Shown in pieces: positions 9,254 to 30,471 of a stretch of 39,878 nt of DNA. The notes beneath the pieces are model-generated. The model had not been told where the DNA came from, did not search any database, and worked only from the letters and a program-made list of their open reading frames with translations. The position numbers and the translations under genes were made by a program. Each line of letters starts with the position of its first letter. Position 1 is the first letter of the stretch. Origin of the DNA: Sphingobacteriaceae bacterium. Lineage in GTDB: Bacteria > Bacteroidota > Bacteroidia > Sphingobacteriales > Sphingobacteriaceae. Location of the stretch: the NCBI GenBank assembly GCA_024645045.1, contig JAHEGO010000012.1:1-39878 (forward strand). Direction: 5' to 3'.

Positions 9254-10999
9254 ATGAAGAAAATTGTACTCAGTTTATTTTTATCATTCGCTGTATTTAG
9301 CGTTTTTAACTTACTGGCACCCAATGCCATTTCAGAACCTACAGGTTCACCAGCATCAAATACAGGGTCTCCTGCAGACGGAACCACATGCGCAGAATCT
9401 TGCCACGGCGGATCAGCTGTAACTCAAGCAGGTTTAATTACTTCAAACATTCCAACAGCAGGATATACACCTGGAACCACTTATACCATTACAGCAACTA
9501 TTTCTGGGTCTGGTAAAAAAGGATTTCAAGTATCACCACAAAATACTGCTGGTACATTATTAGGCTCTTTAATTGCGGGAAGTGGAAATAAAATTGTCGG
9601 CACTAAATATGTAACACATTCATCTGCAAAAACAGCTACAACTGCAACTTGGACTTTCCAATGGATTGCTCCTGCAGCTGGAACAGGTGCTGTAACATTC
9701 TATGGTGCATTTGCAATAACTACAAATTCAACAAAGAAAAGCACTTTAGTTGTTAATGAAGCAGTTGTAATGAGTACTCCAACTATTACTTCTTTCAGTC
9801 CAACAAATGCTGCTGCCGGTACAACAGTAACAATAACTGGTACAGGATTTACTGGAGCATCGGCTGTTAGTTTTGGAGGAACAGCTGCTACTTCATTTAC
9901 TGTAGTAAACGCTACTACAATTCAAGCAATTGTAGGATCTGGAGCTTCAGGTGATGTTATCGTAACAAACCCATCAGGATCAGCAAATAAATCTGGATTT
10001 GTTTTTGTAGTACCACCAACAATTACACAATTCACGCCTACTTCGGCTAAAAGTGGCGAAACTGTTACCATATTAGGTAGCAATTTTACAAATGCAATTT
10101 CAGTAAAATTTGGTGGTGTTGTTTCAAAATCATTTACGGTACAAAATGATAACTTAATTACTGCAGTTGTTGCAGGAGGTGCATCAGGTGATGTAAATGT
10201 TGTTACACCAGATGGCACGGCATCATTAGCTGGATTTACGTTTGTTAAATCAATCAAAATAAAATCATTTACACCTGATTCTGCAAAAACAAATGATACC
10301 ATTACCATTGTAGGTGAAAATTTAACAGCAGTAATTGATGTAACATTTGGAGGAACGGCAGCATCTAGTTTCTCAGTTTTAAACGACACAATGATTGTTG
10401 CTGCTATAGGTGCAGGCTCAACCGGCGATGTAGGTATTTCTGATAAATTTGGATCTGTTTTCGCAAGTGGCTTTGTATACTTAGCAATCCCTACAATTGG
10501 ATCTTTTAGTCCAACTACAGCTAGAAGAGATGAAGTTGTTACAATTTATGGTAACGAATTAATTGATGTTAGCAATGTGCTATTTGGTGGTGTTGCAGCA
10601 AATAGCTTCAATGTGATATCTAATACTCAAATAGAGGCTCATGTTGGTAATGGCAATAGTGGAAATGTAACAGTTGTTTCACCAAATGGTAGTGATACTA
10701 AACCTGGATTTATATTTAATACAAGCATTGGAATTGAGAATCAATCTAATGCGATTAATTTATTAAATGCATATCCTAATCCGGCTAAAGATCAAATTCA
10801 AATTAAACTACCAAGAAATAGCGCTAACAGCGAAATAGCAATTTACAATATACTTGGAGAGAAAGTATTTAGTAAAGAAATTGAAAAAGACAACGAATCA
10901 ATTACCATTTCGTTAAATAATTGGAATGCTGGCAGCTACTTAATTAGATGGAATGATCAAAGTGGAACCATCACAAGTACATTTGTAAAATCGAATTAA
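9254..10999 (+). CDS. Choice-of-anchor V/IPT-repeat T9SS-exported protein
   Basis: A protein of 581 residues. Signal peptide (about 1-27), then a choice-of-anchor V type domain (about 30-170) that opens with NTGSPADGTTCAESCHGGS. C46, C50 and H51 form a CX3CH motif resembling a c-type heme site with one extra spacer residue. Four IPT/TIG immunoglobulin-like repeats follow (about 176-252, 255-331, 335-411, 412-488), each with an (F)SPTxA start and a GG turn. The end (about 500-581) is a T9SS type A sorting domain with AYPNPAKDQIQIKLP, ILGEKVFS and AGSYLIRW. The product should be surface-attached or secreted. A shorter paralogue lies at 12140-12922 on the far side of the exosortase pair. Heme binding is not established. 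Confidence 0.88.
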   Translation: MKKIVLSLFLSFAVFSVFNLLAPNAISEPTGSPASNTGSPADGTTCAESCHGGSAVTQAGLITSNIPTAGYTPGTTYTITATISGSGKKGFQVSPQNTAGTLLGSLIAGSGNKIVGTKYVTHSSAKTATTATWTFQWIAPAAGTGAVTFYGAFAITTNSTKKSTLVVNEAVVMSTPTITSFSPTNAAAGTTVTITGTGFTGASAVSFGGTAATSFTVVNATTIQAIVGSGASGDVIVTNPSGSANKSGFVFVVPPTITQFTPTSAKSGETVTILGSNFTNAISVKFGGVVSKSFTVQNDNLITAVVAGGASGDVNVVTPDGTASLAGFTFVKSIKIKSFTPDSAKTNDTITIVGENLTAVIDVTFGGTAASSFSVLNDTMIVAAIGAGSTGDVGISDKFGSVFASGFVYLAIPTIGSFSPTTARRDEVVTIYGNELIDVSNVLFGGVAANSFNVISNTQIEAHVGNGNSGNVTVVSPNGSDTKPGFIFNTSIGIENQSNAINLLNAYPNPAKDQIQIKLPRNSANSEIAIYNILGEKVFSKEIEKDNESITISLNNWNAGSYLIRWNDQSGTITSTFVKSN

Positions 11000-11019
11000 T
11001 TATAAAAAATATTAATTAT

Positions 11020-11056
11020 AAAAAAAGAGGGATGGTTTACTATCCCTCTTTTTTTT
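11020..11056. terminator. Bidirectional Rho-independent-type terminator
   Basis: GAGGGAT (11027-11033) pairs with ATCCCTC (11042-11048) across an eight-base loop, with an A-run before and eight T's after (11049-11056). It works in both directions: for the choice-of-anchor V gene on plus and for the exosortase pair on minus, whose final codons (E-G-stop) form one arm of the stem. Confidence 0.85.
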
Positions 11057-11432
11057 CTTCTAATAAAAAACGATGTAGCAAACCCATAGATACATAAAGG
11101 GTTGGTGCAATTAAAAATTCGTTTAAGTCAAATAATATAACACGAATATTTAATGCAAGTGGATGAACCAACCAATCAAATGCTCCGAAGCTAGTAATAA
11201 TAAGTATTCCAGAGATATGAACTAGATGCCAAATTGTTTGCATCCATTTTATTTGTTCTAAATGCAATTGACGCAATCCAATTAAATAGACAGTAATTAA
11301 CATCGAAAATTTTATCAAATGTCTGAGTTTGCGCGGTATTAATTCAAAGTTTGGTGACTCAAAAAAGAAGATATAATAAGCTGAGTAAAGTAGAAACAAT
11401 ACAATTAATCCAATCCAAAACTTCCTAGGCAT
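11040..11432 (-). CDS. Exosortase-associated small membrane protein
   Basis: A protein of 130 residues from the ATG at 11432 (MPRKFWIGLIV). A longer frame reaches 11486 but would overlap the exosortase by 62 bases. From 11432 the start overlaps the exosortase stop by only eight bases (ATGCCTAG), typical of translational coupling. About four hydrophobic segments are seen (near 5-22, 40-58, 70-88 and 100-118), without a signal cleavage site or catalytic motif. Size, topology and position match the exosortase F system-associated proteins that follow XrtF in Flavobacteriia, but I cannot confirm that exact family by eye. The function of such partners is unknown. Confidence 0.75.
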   Translation of the reverse strand: MPRKFWIGLIVLFLLYSAYYIFFFESPNFELIPRKLRHLIKFSMLITVYLIGLRQLHLEQIKWMQTIWHLVHISGILIITSFGAFDWLVHPLALNIRVILFDLNEFLIAPTLYVSMGLLHRFLLEEKKEG

Positions 11433-12021
11433 GATGGTTGTTTTTTTTGTTAATTTGAGTAAATCGAACCCATAAATAAAATACAATTCCGTATACCATT
11501 ACTTTGAACAAATAATGATGGGCAAAAAATAAAACTTTTGGGTTATAATAGGAAAACATGGCGAGTCCTGTACACCTTAAAATATTAACTAATACAATTA
11601 AAATTAAACCTAAAATAGCATATCTTAATTTTAATATGTTTGGTGCTGGATATGCAATTATAAAACCAATAAAAAGCATGAATAAACTTAATCCATTGCA
11701 TCCATCAGCTATTCCAATTAATTTAATTCCATCTGCAAAAATGGTGGTTTTTAAGTAATCGAATTCCATTGCTTCGACCTGTTCTTTTTGTAATACTTCT
11801 TTGACTACGATAGAATGTGATGGCATCAATTGTTTAACACACCAAGCCGTAGCTTTTCCAGTAAACATTGACAAAGGTTGATCAATGACACGATTAGGAG
11901 CTAAAAATCCTAAATATAGCACCTGCCAAATCACTAATAAAAACAGCGCCTTTGTCGCAAAAACCCTAATGGGTTTAGGAATATCTTTAATGGCTTGCAA
12001 AGCTGATTGTATGATTTTCAT
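11425..12021 (-). CDS. Exosortase/archaeosortase family protein (XrtF/XrtX-like)
   Basis: An integral membrane protein of 198 residues. It carries the three exosortase catalytic positions: C108 in IADGCNGLS, R149 in VNILRCTGL and H168/H169 in FFAHHYLFK, within several membrane helices. The family is proposed to cut and re-anchor proteins that carry short C-terminal sorting signals. The length fits the small Bacteroidota exosortases rather than the large EpsI-linked types. The start is the first ATG, at 12021. It is the first gene of a two-gene unit, antisense to and between two choice-of-anchor V proteins. No protein with a PEP-CTERM-like tail is seen in the window; neighbouring substrates carry T9SS domains. 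It may therefore be an orphan exosortase with distant targets. Confidence 0.88.
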   Translation of the reverse strand: MKIIQSALQAIKDIPKPIRVFATKALFLLVIWQVLYLGFLAPNRVIDQPLSMFTGKATAWCVKQLMPSHSIVVKEVLQKEQVEAMEFDYLKTTIFADGIKLIGIADGCNGLSLFMLFIGFIIAYPAPNILKLRYAILGLILIVLVNILRCTGLAMFSYYNPKVLFFAHHYLFKVMVYGIVFYLWVRFTQINKKNNHHA

Positions 12022-12139
12022 TAGCTAAAATTGAACGTACAATGATAAGCATTTATATCAATATGTGATTTCACCGACTGTTTGTCTATTTTATTTTAAT
12101 TTTTTTGGAAAAAATCATACTTTAGAAAAAAAACATCAA

Positions 12140-12922
12140 ATGAAAAAAATTGTAATCCTTTCAAGTTTGACTTTAATTGTAACATTTGCAATAAGTCTAT
12201 CTTCACATAAAGCTATTTCAAATCCATCAGGAGGGCCAGCAGGAAATACAGGATCACCTGCAGACGGTCAAACATGTGCTCATTCTGGATGTCATTCAGG
12301 GACTGCAACTACTGTTGCAAGTGGTATATTATCTAGCTCTGTGCCTTCGGCAGGTTATACCCCAGGAACAACATATAATATTATGGTTTCACATACAGGT
12401 ACTGGAAAAAAAGGATTTCAAGTTTCACCTCAAACAACCGCTGGCTTATTACAAGGCAGTTTAATTGCTGGAACAGGAAATAAAATAGTAAGTACAAAAT
12501 ATGTAACTCATAACGCATCTAACTCTGCAAACCCTTGCACATGGACTTTTAAATGGGTTGCTCCTGCTGCAGGAACAGGTGATGTTACTTTTTATGGTGT
12601 TGTAGTATTAGGCACAAACTCTACTAAGAAAACAACATTAGTTGTTCATGAAGCAAGTACTACTCAAGGTGTAAGCAACGAATCTTCAACAAAATTAAGC
12701 GTATACCCTAACCCAGTTATCGATCAAATTAACATTAAATTAACTGATGAAACCAATGCAGGAAAAGCAATGTTATTTGACTTAAATGGAGAGTTAATTC
12801 TAACAGAAAATTTTGAATCTAACGAATTTAGTATGAATGTAAGTAACATTTCTGCTGGAAGTTATTACCTAAGAATTAATGATGGCAAAAATCAATATTT
12901 TAAACATATTGTAATAAAATAA
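12140..12922 (+). CDS. Choice-of-anchor V T9SS-exported protein (short paralogue)
   Basis: A protein of 260 residues from the ATG at 12140; an upstream in-frame start at 12065 would precede a good signal peptide (MKKIVILSSLTLIV) and is rejected. The choice-of-anchor V type domain (about 28-175) begins NTGSPADGQTCAHSGCHSG, with C46, C51 and H52 forming a CX4CH motif. It shares long stretches with the 9254 gene, for example GKKGFQVSPQ, GSLIAG, TKYVTH and PAAGTG. No IPT repeats are present. A T9SS type A sorting domain ends the protein (LSVYPNPVIDQINIKL, AGSYYLRIND). The two paralogues surround the exosortase pair. Expected location is the cell surface; the role is unknown. Confidence 0.87.
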   Translation: MKKIVILSSLTLIVTFAISLSSHKAISNPSGGPAGNTGSPADGQTCAHSGCHSGTATTVASGILSSSVPSAGYTPGTTYNIMVSHTGTGKKGFQVSPQTTAGLLQGSLIAGTGNKIVSTKYVTHNASNSANPCTWTFKWVAPAAGTGDVTFYGVVVLGTNSTKKTTLVVHEASTTQGVSNESSTKLSVYPNPVIDQINIKLTDETNAGKAMLFDLNGELILTENFESNEFSMNVSNISAGSYYLRINDGKNQYFKHIVIK

Positions 12923-12936
12923 TTTTTCCAATAATT

Positions 12937-12968
12937 AAAAAAGACCAATCAATTGATTGGTCTTTTTT
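12937..12968. terminator. Perfect-palindrome bidirectional terminator
   Basis: Six A's, the palindrome GACCAATCAATTGATTGGTC (12943-12962) and at least six T's form a 32-base perfect inverted repeat with T-runs in both directions. It separates the short choice-of-anchor V gene (plus) from the EVE gene (minus), ending both units. Confidence 0.9.
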
Positions 12969-14451: not shown

Positions 14452-14907
14452 TTAAATTGCTTGATATTCGGGTATTTCAGAAATAAAATTAAATTGGTTG
14501 GTTTCGTAATCTACCGCACAACAAAAATGGGTTAAACCATTACTCAACACTAAATATTTGGCTTGATGCACATAATTGTAGCGGATAATTTGCTCAAATA
14601 CTGCTTGGTCTATGTTTACCGATGGCGCTTTGCATTCAACTATTAAAAGTGGTTTTGTATCTGCATTATAGACCACTATATCGGTGCGCTTATTTCGCTC
14701 ATGTAAGGTCAATCCTTTTTCAATGGCAAAAAATGCTTTAGGATATTTTTTTTGATTTATTAGAAATTGAATAAAATGTTGACGTACCCATTCTTCTGGT
14801 GTTATAAGTATGTCTTTTTTTCTTAAAGCATCGAACAAATATAAACCACTTTCCTTTTTTTTAATTTGAAAAGGAAATGGCGGTAAATTTAATGCTTGAA
14901 GTGACAT
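14452..14907 (-). CDS. HsdR_N-like PD-(D/E)XK domain protein
   Basis: A protein of 151 residues consisting of a single domain like the N-terminus of type I restriction subunit R. The PD-(D/E)XK core is visible as D76 in KRTDIVVYN and E91/K93 in LLIVECKAPS, with E63 in FFAIEKGL upstream and a Q-containing helix (IDQAVFEQIIRYNY) after it. There is no helicase part, and no HsdM or HsdS gene is nearby, so it is not a restriction enzyme remnant in any obvious sense. This small protein beside holA is a recurring arrangement in Bacteroidota. It starts three bases after the valS stop. Nuclease activity is possible from the residues but not shown. Confidence 0.88.
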   Translation of the reverse strand: MSLQALNLPPFPFQIKKKESGLYLFDALRKKDILITPEEWVRQHFIQFLINQKKYPKAFFAIEKGLTLHERNKRTDIVVYNADTKPLLIVECKAPSVNIDQAVFEQIIRYNYVHQAKYLVLSNGLTHFCCAVDYETNQFNFISEIPEYQAI

Positions 14908-25337: not shown

Positions 25338-25877
25338 CTAAAACAAAGAGTGGTAAGCTGATGTCATTAAATTGACAAATGAAGAAAAATCAATTCCTTG
25401 AGTCATAAAAAACAAAACAAATAAGACGATAAATATTAACATAATTATTCGTTTGATAAGTAATGCAAGGATAACAATAATTAGCGGAATGATAATTAGC
25501 AACCAAAGCGGTATTGGAATTACAAAACCTGCTAATATATAATACAAATGATAGATAGACGTATTTGTGGCTTCGTGTTTAATAAATAAAATATCACTTT
25601 TCATTTCTGCTGGTAATACAGCTTTCCCATTTTTAAAATCTACTTTTTCTATAAATCCGTTAATAACAAATTCATATTTACCCTCTATACTTTTATCTAA
25701 ATTTTCATCAGACTGAATGGCTTCAATGCTTAGTTTTGATTGACCATTTTCAGTTGACTTGGTTAATTGAAAATCATGGATTGGAAAAAGCTCTGAAAGG
25801 TTAAAATACACTGTATGTTGCGCTTGCAACTGAAATGTTATCAAAAAAGTAAATAGAATTGTTAAAAATTTGCGCAT
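25338..25877 (-). CDS. Membrane protein of unknown function
   Basis: A protein of 179 residues that I do not recognise. It has a signal peptide (MRKFLTILFTFLITFQLQA-Q), an extracytoplasmic region of about 90 residues with beta-strand character (KYEFVINGFIEKVDFKNGK), and a hydrophobic stretch around 110-160 that fits two or three membrane helices (FVIPIPLWLLIIIPLIIVIL and a following segment after KR). It converges with tamL with six bases between stops, and is divergent from the FG-GAP pair, whose ATG lies only 25 bases from its own start. No catalytic motif is visible. Confidence 0.75.
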   Translation of the reverse strand: MRKFLTILFTFLITFQLQAQHTVYFNLSELFPIHDFQLTKSTENGQSKLSIEAIQSDENLDKSIEGKYEFVINGFIEKVDFKNGKAVLPAEMKSDILFIKHEATNTSIYHLYYILAGFVIPIPLWLLIIIPLIIVILALLIKRIIMLIFIVLFVLFFMTQGIDFSSFVNLMTSAYHSLF

Positions 25878-25902
25878 ATTTAGGGGTATTATAAATACAA
25901 AA

Positions 25903-28188
25903 ATGAAAAAAATATTGGGATTTCTTAGTATTCTCTTAAATCTAGCCTTTTCTGGCTATTCCCAATATATTCTTGACTTTAAACCCTATAACACACAAAA
26001 AGCAGCAATTGAAGTAACAGAAAATGGCAAAAAATTAGCCAACCCTTTTGCTGGAGGTTTAGATGCTGCACAATTTGCCAGTTGCGACATAGATTTAGAT
26101 GGGAAAAAAGACATTGTTGTTCATGATAAAGAGGGTGCAATACTTTCTTGTTTTATAAATGAAGGTGGCTATAATGAAATTAAATACCGCTATGATATTC
26201 GCTATGTAAATAAATTTCCTCCAATTGGTGAGTGGTTGTTGATGGCAGATTTCAATGGCGACGGTAAAGAGGATTTATTTTGCGATAAAAATGGTGGTAT
26301 TGCTTGTTACCAAAACATTTCAACAGATTCAACTGGTTTAAAATTTAAACTAATCATAGAAAATATATTATTTAGTACGAGCCAATTTACCATTGCTATT
26401 GGCGTACCTTCTAATGATATACCAAGCATTGCAGATGTAGATGGAGATGGTGATTTAGATATATTGAGATTTGGAACAGCAACCATTACCCCAGGTGAAC
26501 CCATTGAATGGTTTAAAAATTTAACGGTTGAGAAAACAGGTGTAGCAGGAATAGATACTTTTGTAATTTGGAAAAGATGTTGGGGCAGGTTTATCGAAGA
26601 TAATAATGGTTGCACTATTTTATTGAATTATGCAGGCACTCCTTGTAGCACAGGCAGTAAAGAAGCAAATACTTTAAGCTTGAGTGAGTATCAAAATAAT
26701 ATTTCAAATATCAATAAATCTAATAAACACTCAGGGTCAACTTGTTTGGTGTATGATTTTACAGGTGATGGTAAAAGTGATGTATTGATTGGAGATGCGG
26801 GTTGTAACCAAATGTATTTGGCGATAAATGGCACTGATAATTCAAATGCCATCATGAACCAAGTTACCAATAACTTTCCTACTTCACTTCCTATTAATTT
26901 TGCTACGTTCCCTGCTGCTTTTTTATTAGATGTAAATAACGATGGCTTAAAAGATTTAATTGCGTGCCCAAATACGCCTAATGCAAGTCTTAATTTTGGG
27001 AATGTATATTTATACCTTAACAGAGGAACCAGTACTATTCCTTATTTTGTTTTTGATAATGCAAGCTTTTTAGTTGATGAACAAATAGATGTCGGAGAGG
27101 GCGCATGTCCTAGCTTTGTCGACTACAATCAAGATGGATTAATGGACATCATAATTGGTAGTACCGGATATTTTCAAAGTAATGGGACATACTTAAGCTC
27201 CCTTACATTATATAAAAATATTGGTACAAGTAACAACCCTAAATTTGAATTACAAACAAGAGATTATGGCAATTTCTCAAGCTTAGGAATACAAAAAATG
27301 TCGCCAGTATTTTTTGATGCAGACGGAGATGCTGATATAGATATGATTTGTGGCAGTGGAGATGGTAATTTTTATTATTTTCAAAATACCGCTGGTGCAG
27401 GTCAAACATTTAATTTAACATTTATTCCAAACAGCTTTCCTAATTTAGATATTGGAAATAATGCAAGCCCAAGTGTGTATGATCTTGACAAAGATGGCAT
27501 TCAAGATTTAATTACTGGTGAAAATTTTTATAATATCAATTTCCTTAAAGGGCAATCGAATACACAACCTTCTTATGTCTTAGCCACCGATTCTCTCTAT
27601 AAAATTAATTTAAGTAAGCTTTTTAATTACCCAAGTAGCCGAGCAGCTGTATGTATAAAAAAACTATTTAAAAATGATAAAGAACGGCTTTGTTTCAGTG
27701 ATGGAAATAGCTATTTATATGTCTTAGATAGCTTATATAACGACCCAAATAATGCTAATGTAAAGGTGAGTGGTTTAGTAAATTTAATGCAAGGTGAATT
27801 TAGCTATGCCAATGGTGGATTTAAAATTGATTTAGCAGATATTGACAATGATGATAAAGCAGAATTAATTATTGGAACTCCAAGAGGTGGAATTGCGCTA
27901 TATTGGAATGCAAGCCCTCCCCCTCCTGTTGGTATTGATTATAAACGTGTACAGCAATTAAATGCTTTTCCAAATCCAAGTCATACAGAATTTTATCTAA
28001 ATTTACCATTGAACGAATATGCTTTGAACATTCGCATCACCAATTTATTTGGAGAAGCAATAGAAGCACCCGTTAAGATTGAAAGAAATTCCATTTATAT
28101 TAACAGCCTAAATTTAGCTCAAGGCTTTTATTTAGTGGATATACAGACCAATCAAAAAAATTATTCAGCAAAAATCATCAAACAATAA
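25903..28188 (+). CDS. FG-GAP/VCBS-repeat T9SS-exported protein, copy 1
   Basis: A protein of 761 residues from the ATG at 25903; a frame start at 25870 would put eleven residues before the signal peptide (MKKILGFLSILLNLAFSGYS-Q). About nine FG-GAP-like repeats follow, each with an acidic calcium-binding type loop: DIDLDGKKDIVV, DFNGDGKEDLF, DVDGDGDLDIL, DFTGDGKSDVLIG, DVNNDGLKDLIA, DYNQDGLMDIIIG, DADGDADIDMICG, DLDKDGIQDLITG and DIDNDDKAELIIG. A Cys-containing insert (around RCWGRFIEDNNGC and TPCSTG) lies between repeats 3 and 4. The C-terminus is a T9SS type A sorting domain (LNAFPNPSHTEFYLNLP, LAQGFYLVDIQ). A surface or secreted propeller is predicted; its ligand is unknown. Confidence 0.9.
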   Translation: MKKILGFLSILLNLAFSGYSQYILDFKPYNTQKAAIEVTENGKKLANPFAGGLDAAQFASCDIDLDGKKDIVVHDKEGAILSCFINEGGYNEIKYRYDIRYVNKFPPIGEWLLMADFNGDGKEDLFCDKNGGIACYQNISTDSTGLKFKLIIENILFSTSQFTIAIGVPSNDIPSIADVDGDGDLDILRFGTATITPGEPIEWFKNLTVEKTGVAGIDTFVIWKRCWGRFIEDNNGCTILLNYAGTPCSTGSKEANTLSLSEYQNNISNINKSNKHSGSTCLVYDFTGDGKSDVLIGDAGCNQMYLAINGTDNSNAIMNQVTNNFPTSLPINFATFPAAFLLDVNNDGLKDLIACPNTPNASLNFGNVYLYLNRGTSTIPYFVFDNASFLVDEQIDVGEGACPSFVDYNQDGLMDIIIGSTGYFQSNGTYLSSLTLYKNIGTSNNPKFELQTRDYGNFSSLGIQKMSPVFFDADGDADIDMICGSGDGNFYYFQNTAGAGQTFNLTFIPNSFPNLDIGNNASPSVYDLDKDGIQDLITGENFYNINFLKGQSNTQPSYVLATDSLYKINLSKLFNYPSSRAAVCIKKLFKNDKERLCFSDGNSYLYVLDSLYNDPNNANVKVSGLVNLMQGEFSYANGGFKIDLADIDNDDKAELIIGTPRGGIALYWNASPPPPVGIDYKRVQQLNAFPNPSHTEFYLNLPLNEYALNIRITNLFGEAIEAPVKIERNSIYINSLNLAQGFYLVDIQTNQKNYSAKIIKQ

Positions 28189-30471
28189 ATGAAAAAATAT
28201 TTAATTTTTACACTTTTTTTATTCAGCAAAACAGTTGATGCCCAAAATTTTACAGGCAATTTTATACCGTATCCAAATACCATTCCTGTAACTCAAACCA
28301 ATAAATCTATAAACTTAGCATTTGCTGGAGGCATTGATGTGCCGCAGTTTTCTGCATGCGACTTAGATTTTGATGGTAAAAAAGACTTAGTAATTTTTGA
28401 CAGAGAAGGTGGAAAATTTAGCTGTTTTTTAAATAAAGGTAATACTGGTCAAATTGCATATGAATATGCTCCTCAATACGCAATAAAATTTCCTAAAAAA
28501 CTATCAGAATGGGTGCTAATGGTTGATTATAATGGCGATGGCAAAGAAGATATTTTTACAGCAATTCCGGGTGGCGTTAAAATTTATAAGAATACTTCAA
28601 GTATTCAAAATGGCATTTCTTTCGAATTAGTAAACGGCGATGTACAAGCAGATTTTGGAACATTTCTAACTAGGCTTTACAGCGGCCCTGCAGACATACC
28701 AGCAATTTTAGACGTAGATGATGATGGAGATGTAGATATCTTAAGTATGGAGCTAGGAATTGATACAGCAGGCGATGGGATTTATATGTATAAAAACATG
28801 TCAATGGAAACCTATGGTGTAAAAGATTCCGTTAATAATTTTATTGTTCATAAAAGATGTTGGGGAAGATTTAGAGAATCATATCAAAATTGCAATGTGT
28901 CCTTACAATATCAAAGTGGTCCTTGTGCCACTGGTAATAGATATATTCCAGAATTCACTAAATCAGAATTTGAAACTTTAGTTAGCAATAAATTAAACGG
29001 CGGAAAACATTCTGGGTCAACATTATTGGTTTTTGACTCAAATGGTGACGGTAAAAAAGACATTCTAATTGGTGATATTGGTTGTAATAATATGTATTTA
29101 TTGGTGAATAGCGAAAGTAATTCAAACCCAATATTTACGCAATTTTTCAGGTATTACCCGGCAACAGATCCTATACTTGTGGAGAGTTTTCCTGCCGCAT
29201 TTTTCATAGACGTAAACAATGATAATAAAAGAGATTTAATTGCTGTTCCAAATACGACTGGAAATGCTGATAATTTTGAAAACATAAAATTATACTTAAA
29301 TCAAGGAACCGATGCAGCTCCAGATTTTGTGTTAACTACTAACGCATTTTTAGAAGAGGAAATGATTGAAGTTGGTGAAGGCTCCCACCCTGTTTTTGTT
29401 GACTTTGACCAAAATGGACTCATGGATTTTGTAGTCAGTACCACAGGGTATTTTCAATCAAATGGCACTTATAAATCTGGATTAACTGCTTATAAAAATG
29501 TTGGAACTATTAATAGCCCGGCATTTGAGCTCGTAAGCAGAGACATGTGGTCTTTAGCTAATTTTAACATTTCTAATATGGTTCCTACTTTTGGAGATGT
29601 AGATCATGACAATGATTTAGACATGATTACTGGTGCAAATGATGGCACCTTTTACTATTTTGAAAATACAGCAGGTGCGAATAATCCTTTTCAATTTAAT
29701 TTTAAGTCTAACTATTTAACTGGTTTAGATGTAGGCAATTTATCTACCCCATTTTTAAACAATACCTTAAGCGCAAATTCAAGACTGGCAATGATTTCGG
29801 GCGAAAGATTTGACAATATCAATTATTGGCAAGACACTTCTTCTACAGCCGAACCTAAATTTAAATTAATCACAGATTCCCTTTTTAAAATTAATATGAG
29901 AGCCGTTTCAGGATTTCCTAGTGGTAGGACAACGGCAGTGATTCAAAAATTATTTAGCGCAGACCGTGAGCGATTAGTAGTTTCAAATGCCAATGGAAAA
30001 GTTTATATTTTTAATCATATTGACCAACTTTTATTGTCATTAGGCCCTGTATTGATAGACTCTATCAATTTAATTCAAGGACAATATACTTTGAGCAATG
30101 GTGGATTTGGAATAAGCATGGCAGATATTGATGGCGATAACAAGCCAGAACTGTTAGCAGGTAACCCTCAAGGCGGTTTGGTGTTGTTTAAAAATCAAAC
30201 TATTCCTGATGGTATCCAACAAGCTGATCAATTTAAAAAACATATAATTTGTTATCCTAATCCAAGTAAAAATTTCATTAAACTATATAGTACCGAGCAT
30301 ATTAAAATCAATGCCTTCACAATATTGAATCAATTGGGGCAAATTATTTTACAAGAGCAAATAAATGCAAATGCAGTTGAGATAAATTTAACCACAATAC
30401 CTAATGGAATTTACACTTTGAGCATTTCAACAGAAGCAGGAATTCAATTTGAAAAAATAATCAAACAATAA
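28189..30471 (+). CDS. FG-GAP/VCBS-repeat T9SS-exported protein, copy 2
   Basis: A protein of 760 residues, a full-length paralogue of the gene directly before it, with start ATG touching the previous stop (TAAATG). Signal peptide MKKYLIFTLFLFSKTVDA-Q, then the same order of FG-GAP-like repeats (DLDFDGKKDLVI, DYNGDGKEDIF, DVDDDGDVDIL, DSNGDGKKDILIG, DVNNDNKRDLIA, DFDQNGLMDFVV, DVDHDNDLDMITG, DIDGDNKPELLAG). The repeat corresponding to number eight of copy 1 has lost its acidic loop (around LSANSRLAMISG). The Cys insert is conserved (RCWGRFRESYQNC, GPCATG). A T9SS sorting domain ends the protein (IICYPNPSKNFIKLY, IPNGIYTLSIS). Its stop is one base from the converging peroxidase gene. Confidence 0.9.
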   Translation: MKKYLIFTLFLFSKTVDAQNFTGNFIPYPNTIPVTQTNKSINLAFAGGIDVPQFSACDLDFDGKKDLVIFDREGGKFSCFLNKGNTGQIAYEYAPQYAIKFPKKLSEWVLMVDYNGDGKEDIFTAIPGGVKIYKNTSSIQNGISFELVNGDVQADFGTFLTRLYSGPADIPAILDVDDDGDVDILSMELGIDTAGDGIYMYKNMSMETYGVKDSVNNFIVHKRCWGRFRESYQNCNVSLQYQSGPCATGNRYIPEFTKSEFETLVSNKLNGGKHSGSTLLVFDSNGDGKKDILIGDIGCNNMYLLVNSESNSNPIFTQFFRYYPATDPILVESFPAAFFIDVNNDNKRDLIAVPNTTGNADNFENIKLYLNQGTDAAPDFVLTTNAFLEEEMIEVGEGSHPVFVDFDQNGLMDFVVSTTGYFQSNGTYKSGLTAYKNVGTINSPAFELVSRDMWSLANFNISNMVPTFGDVDHDNDLDMITGANDGTFYYFENTAGANNPFQFNFKSNYLTGLDVGNLSTPFLNNTLSANSRLAMISGERFDNINYWQDTSSTAEPKFKLITDSLFKINMRAVSGFPSGRTTAVIQKLFSADRERLVVSNANGKVYIFNHIDQLLLSLGPVLIDSINLIQGQYTLSNGGFGISMADIDGDNKPELLAGNPQGGLVLFKNQTIPDGIQQADQFKKHIICYPNPSKNFIKLYSTEHIKINAFTILNQLGQIILQEQINANAVEINLTTIPNGIYTLSISTEAGIQFEKIIKQ

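Follow-up and report, generated by a model that had tools for sequence, protein, structure and literature searches.

Does an exosortase whose gene is wedged between the genes for two T9SS-exported proteins act on these neighbors, or on substrates encoded elsewhere? This question is raised by positions 9,254-12,922 of a 39,878-nt stretch of DNA from a Sphingobacteriaceae bacterium (contig JAHEGO010000012.1, assembly GCA_024645045.1), referred to here as the window. A first-pass annotation had placed an exosortase and a membrane partner on the minus strand between two choice-of-anchor V (CoaV) T9SS genes on the plus strand, and all four open reading frames were recovered in that order (Table 1).

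Table 1. Features of the exosortase locus, in window coordinates
Feature	Coordinates	Strand	Remarks
CoaV-A	9254..10999	+	signal peptide, choice-of-anchor V domain (CAESCH), four TIG domains, T9SS type A tail; bystander in the best reading
Bidirectional intrinsic terminator, common to CoaV-A and the convergent exosortase pair	11020..11055		overlaps the partner stop codon
Membrane partner, genus-specific family	11040..11486	-	likely true start is the conserved ATG at 11432 (130 aa)
Divergent XrtX-like exosortase, 198 aa	11425..12021	-	putative catalytic C108, R149, and H168; N146 conserved
Divergent intergenic region, 121 bp, between the exosortase and CoaV-B starts	12022..12142
CoaV-B	12143..12922	+	signal peptide, choice-of-anchor V domain (CAHSGCH), T9SS type A tail; bystander in the best reading
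Bidirectional terminator, between CoaV-B and a convergent EVE-domain gene	12937..12968

The source genome is a draft of 70 contigs (completeness 95.6%). The same gene order is found there and in four further genomes of the genus (G001, G002, G004, and G005), that is, in 5/5 genus genomes that have the exosortase. Exosortase identity across these further genomes is near 80%, and the HolA-ValRS side is likewise conserved; the layout is therefore not an assembly artifact. Genome G003 (83% complete) has neither exosortase, CoaV, nor PID-CTERM. For CoaV-B, the ATG at 12143 is the likely start, whereas the listed open reading frame begins at a GTG at 12065. The strong terminators that had been said to bound the block are real and bidirectional (-20.7/-17.4 kcal/mol and z of -5.6/-5.0 on the two strands for the one at 11020-11055; z of -6 for the one at 12937-12968), but they do not bound it, as the former lies inside, between CoaV-A and the exosortase pair. 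Elsewhere in the window, positions 14452-14907 encode a lone HSDR_N-like protein (type I restriction R subunit N-terminus) between ValRS and HolA that is kept in many family relatives, and positions 25870-30471 hold two neighboring FG-GAP repeat proteins with T9SS tails, a further tandem T9SS cargo pair.

To what kind of exosortase does the 198-aa protein belong? It scored 53 bits against the exosortase/archaeosortase signature TIGR04178 (cut-off 23) and so falls within the superfamily, and it passes no other curated exosortase cut-off. The best-matching curated family is exosortase X (XrtX; NF046081), with 116 bits and an E-value of 1.6e-33, below the curated cut-off of 170; in a genome search, the remaining genus exosortases scored 104-107 bits. 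In an alignment of homologs, C108, R149, and H168 fall in columns that are invariant in 32 exosortases, and N146 is conserved too; hence, of the earlier C108/R149/H168-169 assignment, the first three residues hold and H169 does not. Phylogenetically, the window exosortase is sister to an enzyme from genome G051 (support 96/95), whose gene directly adjoins a PID-CTERM gene. Deeper forks are unresolved, and XrtF falls in the same weak group as the window exosortase (87/91). A sequence search of solved structures found no relative, and AlphaFold models of the exosortase and its partner, built from five close sequences, were too poor for fold searches (pLDDT of 46 and 51). Judged by its sequence, the window enzyme is a divergent XrtX-like exosortase with a conserved Cys-Arg-His set.

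Starting from its first conserved ATG (M19, 11432), the membrane partner has an 8-nt overlap with the exosortase stop (ATGCCTAG). This overlap makes coupling of the two genes likely, as the description of the partner as "coupled" had anticipated. Such translational coupling would suggest an exosortase-partner complex, and the partner may assist the exosortase. No NCBIfam family matched the partner, and its own family was found in the genus only. We rejected the partner as an XrtX-associated membrane protein (NF046082) on three counts: the missing NCBIfam match, an hhalign probability of 0.8%, and a non-significant BLAST comparison with the G051 partner.

We then asked whether the two CoaV proteins on either side are substrates or working partners of the exosortase, a functional link that the first-pass annotation had proposed. 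The arrangement itself speaks for it: the order is retained in every genus genome with the exosortase, the flanking pair are the only CoaV genes in the source genome, and exosortase and CoaV-B have the 121-bp divergent promoter region in common. However, the five genomes are near relatives in which the entire neighborhood is conserved. Outside the genus, 0/24 genomes holding both genes have CoaV within 70 kb of the exosortase, and with one genome per family, presence of CoaV and of an exosortase (a set that includes XrtF and XrtY matches) is independent (table 21/14/8/4, p = 0.77). CoaV genes also commonly form tandem pairs where no exosortase is present. Nor do the proteins look like substrates. 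CoaV-A and CoaV-B scored 72 and 68 bits against NCBIfam choice-of-anchor V (cut-off 42), and both exceed the T9SS type A tail cut-off. Their last 40 residues reach a maximum 17-residue hydropathy of only 0.19 and 0.34, within T9SS tails; as had been noted from the sequence, they end in T9SS domains and not in exosortase signals, and they have no membrane helix. CoaV as an exosortase substrate or functional partner was rejected on the tails, which lack the combination of a motif, a hydrophobic helix, and a basic end, and on the co-occurrence and distance results. Exosortases of this family occur in relatives without CoaV nearby, and a distant substrate set exists in the source genome (below), which is the outcome that the first-pass annotation had itself named as refuting the link; we regard action on or with the CoaV proteins as very unlikely. 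The label "heme-motif-like" for these proteins was fair, as the CoaV family has CxxCH or C-x3/x4-CH at that place. This conserved feature near the N-terminus of choice-of-anchor V domains could be where such proteins, exported by T9SS, bind heme c or a metal.

Where, then, are the substrates? We searched the source genome with patterns and family models as well as with a profile built for the genus. As for the proposed hunt for short tails with a motif, one helix, and a basic end, candidates were found: PID-CTERM proteins are encoded on two other contigs. The protein on contig C21 (105 aa; 38.9 bits against an NF046080 cut-off of 26) is intact, with a signal peptide, an acidic/Gly-rich linker, and VPIDGG followed by a hydrophobic stretch and RKKR. 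On contig C61, the genus profile found a degenerate paralog (VPINDG; stretch L182:2232-2537), which still lies behind an intact T9SS cargo gene and is orthologous to intact copies in G005 and G002. PID-CTERM orthologs are present in G002 (three proteins), G005 (two), and G004 (one), and the C21 protein is conserved in these three sister genomes; G001 (84% complete) has the exosortase and no PID-CTERM match. Among 120 genomes examined, 40 of the 41 with PID-CTERM also have an exosortase-family match, and with one genome per family and the exosortase set again including XrtF and XrtY matches, presence of the two is strongly associated (table 21/0/8/18, p = 3.4e-7). In several relatives from the same family, the exosortase that accompanies PID-CTERM is XrtY-like; the PID-CTERM signal is therefore not exclusive to XrtX.

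The PID-CTERM genes have characteristic neighbors. Both in the source genome lie directly downstream of T9SS-tailed cargo genes (C21, L175:1-697; C61, L182:2232-4499, of which the cargo gene occupies L182:2547-4499). More widely, 28 PID-CTERM genes had an upstream neighbor on the same strand that could be read, and in 24/28 that neighbor carries a T9SS type A tail. When a locally built HMM was applied to both sets, T9SS-tailed neighbors were found at 22/28 PID-CTERM loci versus 13/415 control gene pairs (p = 5e-23), a value that overstates independence because six of the 28 loci come from the window's own genus; the loci nevertheless span ~20 genera, and at many of them the exosortase gene lies elsewhere. 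Half of the PID-paired cargo proteins carry NPYxxxIDW, or a pattern close to it, at a distance of ~310-440 residues from the C-terminus, versus 0/29 of the other T9SS cargo in the source genome, where the only site for the pattern is at the C61 pair. Upstream of PID genes, the pattern occurs at 16/50 loci versus 0.01 expected. It also occurs in unpaired proteins, and 59/75 sites have no PID linkage, so the motif is enriched but not exclusive, and it does not define the unit. Taken together, exosortase processing and T9SS cargo appear to be linked through PID-CTERM/cargo pairs and not through CoaV; the suspected link between exosortases and T9SS was thus right in kind but attached to the wrong proteins. 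The open-licence literature that we searched held no description of PID-CTERM or XrtX, including the pairing with T9SS cargo.

We conclude that the exosortase and its partner probably form the processing part of an exosortase X/PID-CTERM sorting system whose genes are split, with its substrates elsewhere in the genome and the CoaV proteins as bystanders. This reading draws on XrtX as the best family, the aligned Cys-Arg-His residues, and the sister enzyme of G051 beside a PID-CTERM gene, as well as on PID-CTERM proteins in the source genome, the co-occurrence of PID-CTERM and exosortases, the T9SS upstream neighbors, and CoaV tails without a hydrophobic stretch. We counted against it the score of 116 rather than 170 bits, a partner unlike XrtX-associated proteins, the degenerate VPINDG copy, the lack of a PID-CTERM match in G001, the XrtY-like enzymes found with PID-CTERM, and the unusable structure models. 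That the window exosortase pairs with PID-CTERM proteins is what we infer from these sequence relationships. PID-CTERM small proteins would cross the inner membrane by Sec and be held in place by their C-terminal helix; the Cys-Arg-His exosortase would cut them at PIDGG or close to it, and the C-terminus formed by the cut would be joined to a lipid or glycan acceptor. Once processed, the small protein would work at the cell surface alongside the T9SS cargo encoded just upstream. Export, holding, cutting near PIDGG, and joining to an acceptor are modeled on C-terminal sorting systems, archaeosortase among them (PMC7157517, PMC11980579).

Two other readings leave the CoaV genes aside. The exosortase might be a new type with its own substrate class in the genus, the PID-CTERM proteins being processed by nothing or by another protease. 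An enzyme that passes the general signature but no other curated exosortase cut-off, a partner restricted to the genus, and one decayed PID copy would all suit such a type, yet this is the sole exosortase found in the source genome, its G051 sister adjoins a PID-CTERM gene, and PID-CTERM without an exosortase was seen in just 1/41 genomes; we consider this reading improbable. Alternatively, the pair could be a decaying orphan in a small genome that is shedding the substrates as part of streamlining. The small genomes (1.3-2.0 Mb), the degenerate VPINDG copy on C61, and the mere 0-3 PID proteins per genome point in this direction. Against decay, exosortase and partner keep ~80-85% identity among genus members, the catalytic residues are intact, and the candidate substrate on C21 is itself intact and conserved in three sister genomes. 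Of all the readings weighed here, including the one that involves CoaV, we give decay the least credence.

How did a processing pair with distant substrates come to lie between two CoaV genes? In the CoaV tree, A and B are sister clades, and the homolog from sister genome G027 falls on the A side (96/92); the A/B duplication is therefore older than the genus and predates the split from G027. That genome has an A-type CoaV and an XrtY-like enzyme (the XrtY reading being taken from the enzyme of its own sister genome) and no XrtX-type match; its CoaV copy is at a contig end, where only the upstream side is readable. These observations fit another idea of the first-pass annotation, namely that the exosortase pair was inserted into an older pair of paralogs. 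Beyond the genus, the CoaV/exosortase block is not kept beside the HolA region in any relative. The exosortase pair would have come between the CoaV genes in the genus ancestor, apparently by insertion or rearrangement, and all five genomes would have inherited the arrangement. The best reading is that the CoaV adjacency is a local accident and that the two CoaV genes are bystanders.

The window result is thus corrective, in that CoaV adjacency does not support a functional link. The substrates and purpose of Bacteroidota exosortases are a standing question on which the PID-CTERM/cargo pairs bear: PID-CTERM genes behind T9SS cargo, even with an unlinked exosortase, are a specific partner candidate for these enzymes, and the pairing offers a way to connect sorting at the inner membrane with export by T9SS. 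We tentatively propose, as a possibility that falls somewhat short of even, that a conserved two-gene unit exists throughout Bacteroidia, made up of a PID-CTERM mini-protein and T9SS cargo of one class (often with NPYxxxIDW), whose products cooperate at the cell surface and join two sorting pathways that have been regarded as separate. The window would then hold a detached enzyme half with a lineage-specific partner.

Among known systems, exosortase X/PID-CTERM (NF046081/NF046080) is closest. At class level, the canonical cassette consists of a large T9SS-tailed protein, a PID-CTERM protein (70-85 aa), XrtX, and an XrtX-associated membrane protein, and it is often near Wzz/GNVR/AAA_31 chain-length/polysaccharide genes. 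The likeness lies in the best family score, the presence of PID-CTERM in the genome, T9SS cargo beside the PID-CTERM gene, and an exosortase gene that is followed directly by one for a small membrane protein. In contrast, the window enzyme does not reach the XrtX cut-off, its substrates are unlinked with no adjacent PID-CTERM gene, and its partner falls outside NF046082; the scan of window genes also turned up no Wzz/GNVR polysaccharide gene among those it covered. Flavobacterium XrtF and the exosortase F-associated protein (TIGR04128/TIGR04127) likewise combine a Bacteroidota exosortase with a neighboring small membrane protein. In F. johnsoniae, XrtF mutants have sand colonization and biofilm defects, and no XrtF substrate is known (PMC10936215). 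We rejected XrtF as the identity of the window enzyme, which scored 62 bits against a cut-off of 90 and whose partner has no TIGR04127 match. Exosortase Y (NF046083) resembles the proposed system in accompanying PID-CTERM proteins in several family-level relatives, but it was rejected as well, as the window enzyme reached 46 bits against a cut-off of 160 and lies on a separate tree branch. Finally, archaeosortase ArtA/PGF-CTERM of Haloferax, with its tripartite C-terminal signal, Cys-Arg-His enzyme, C-terminal cut, and lipid attachment (PMC7157517, PMC11980579), serves as the working model for the window system, although it has another sorting motif and belongs to another domain of life.
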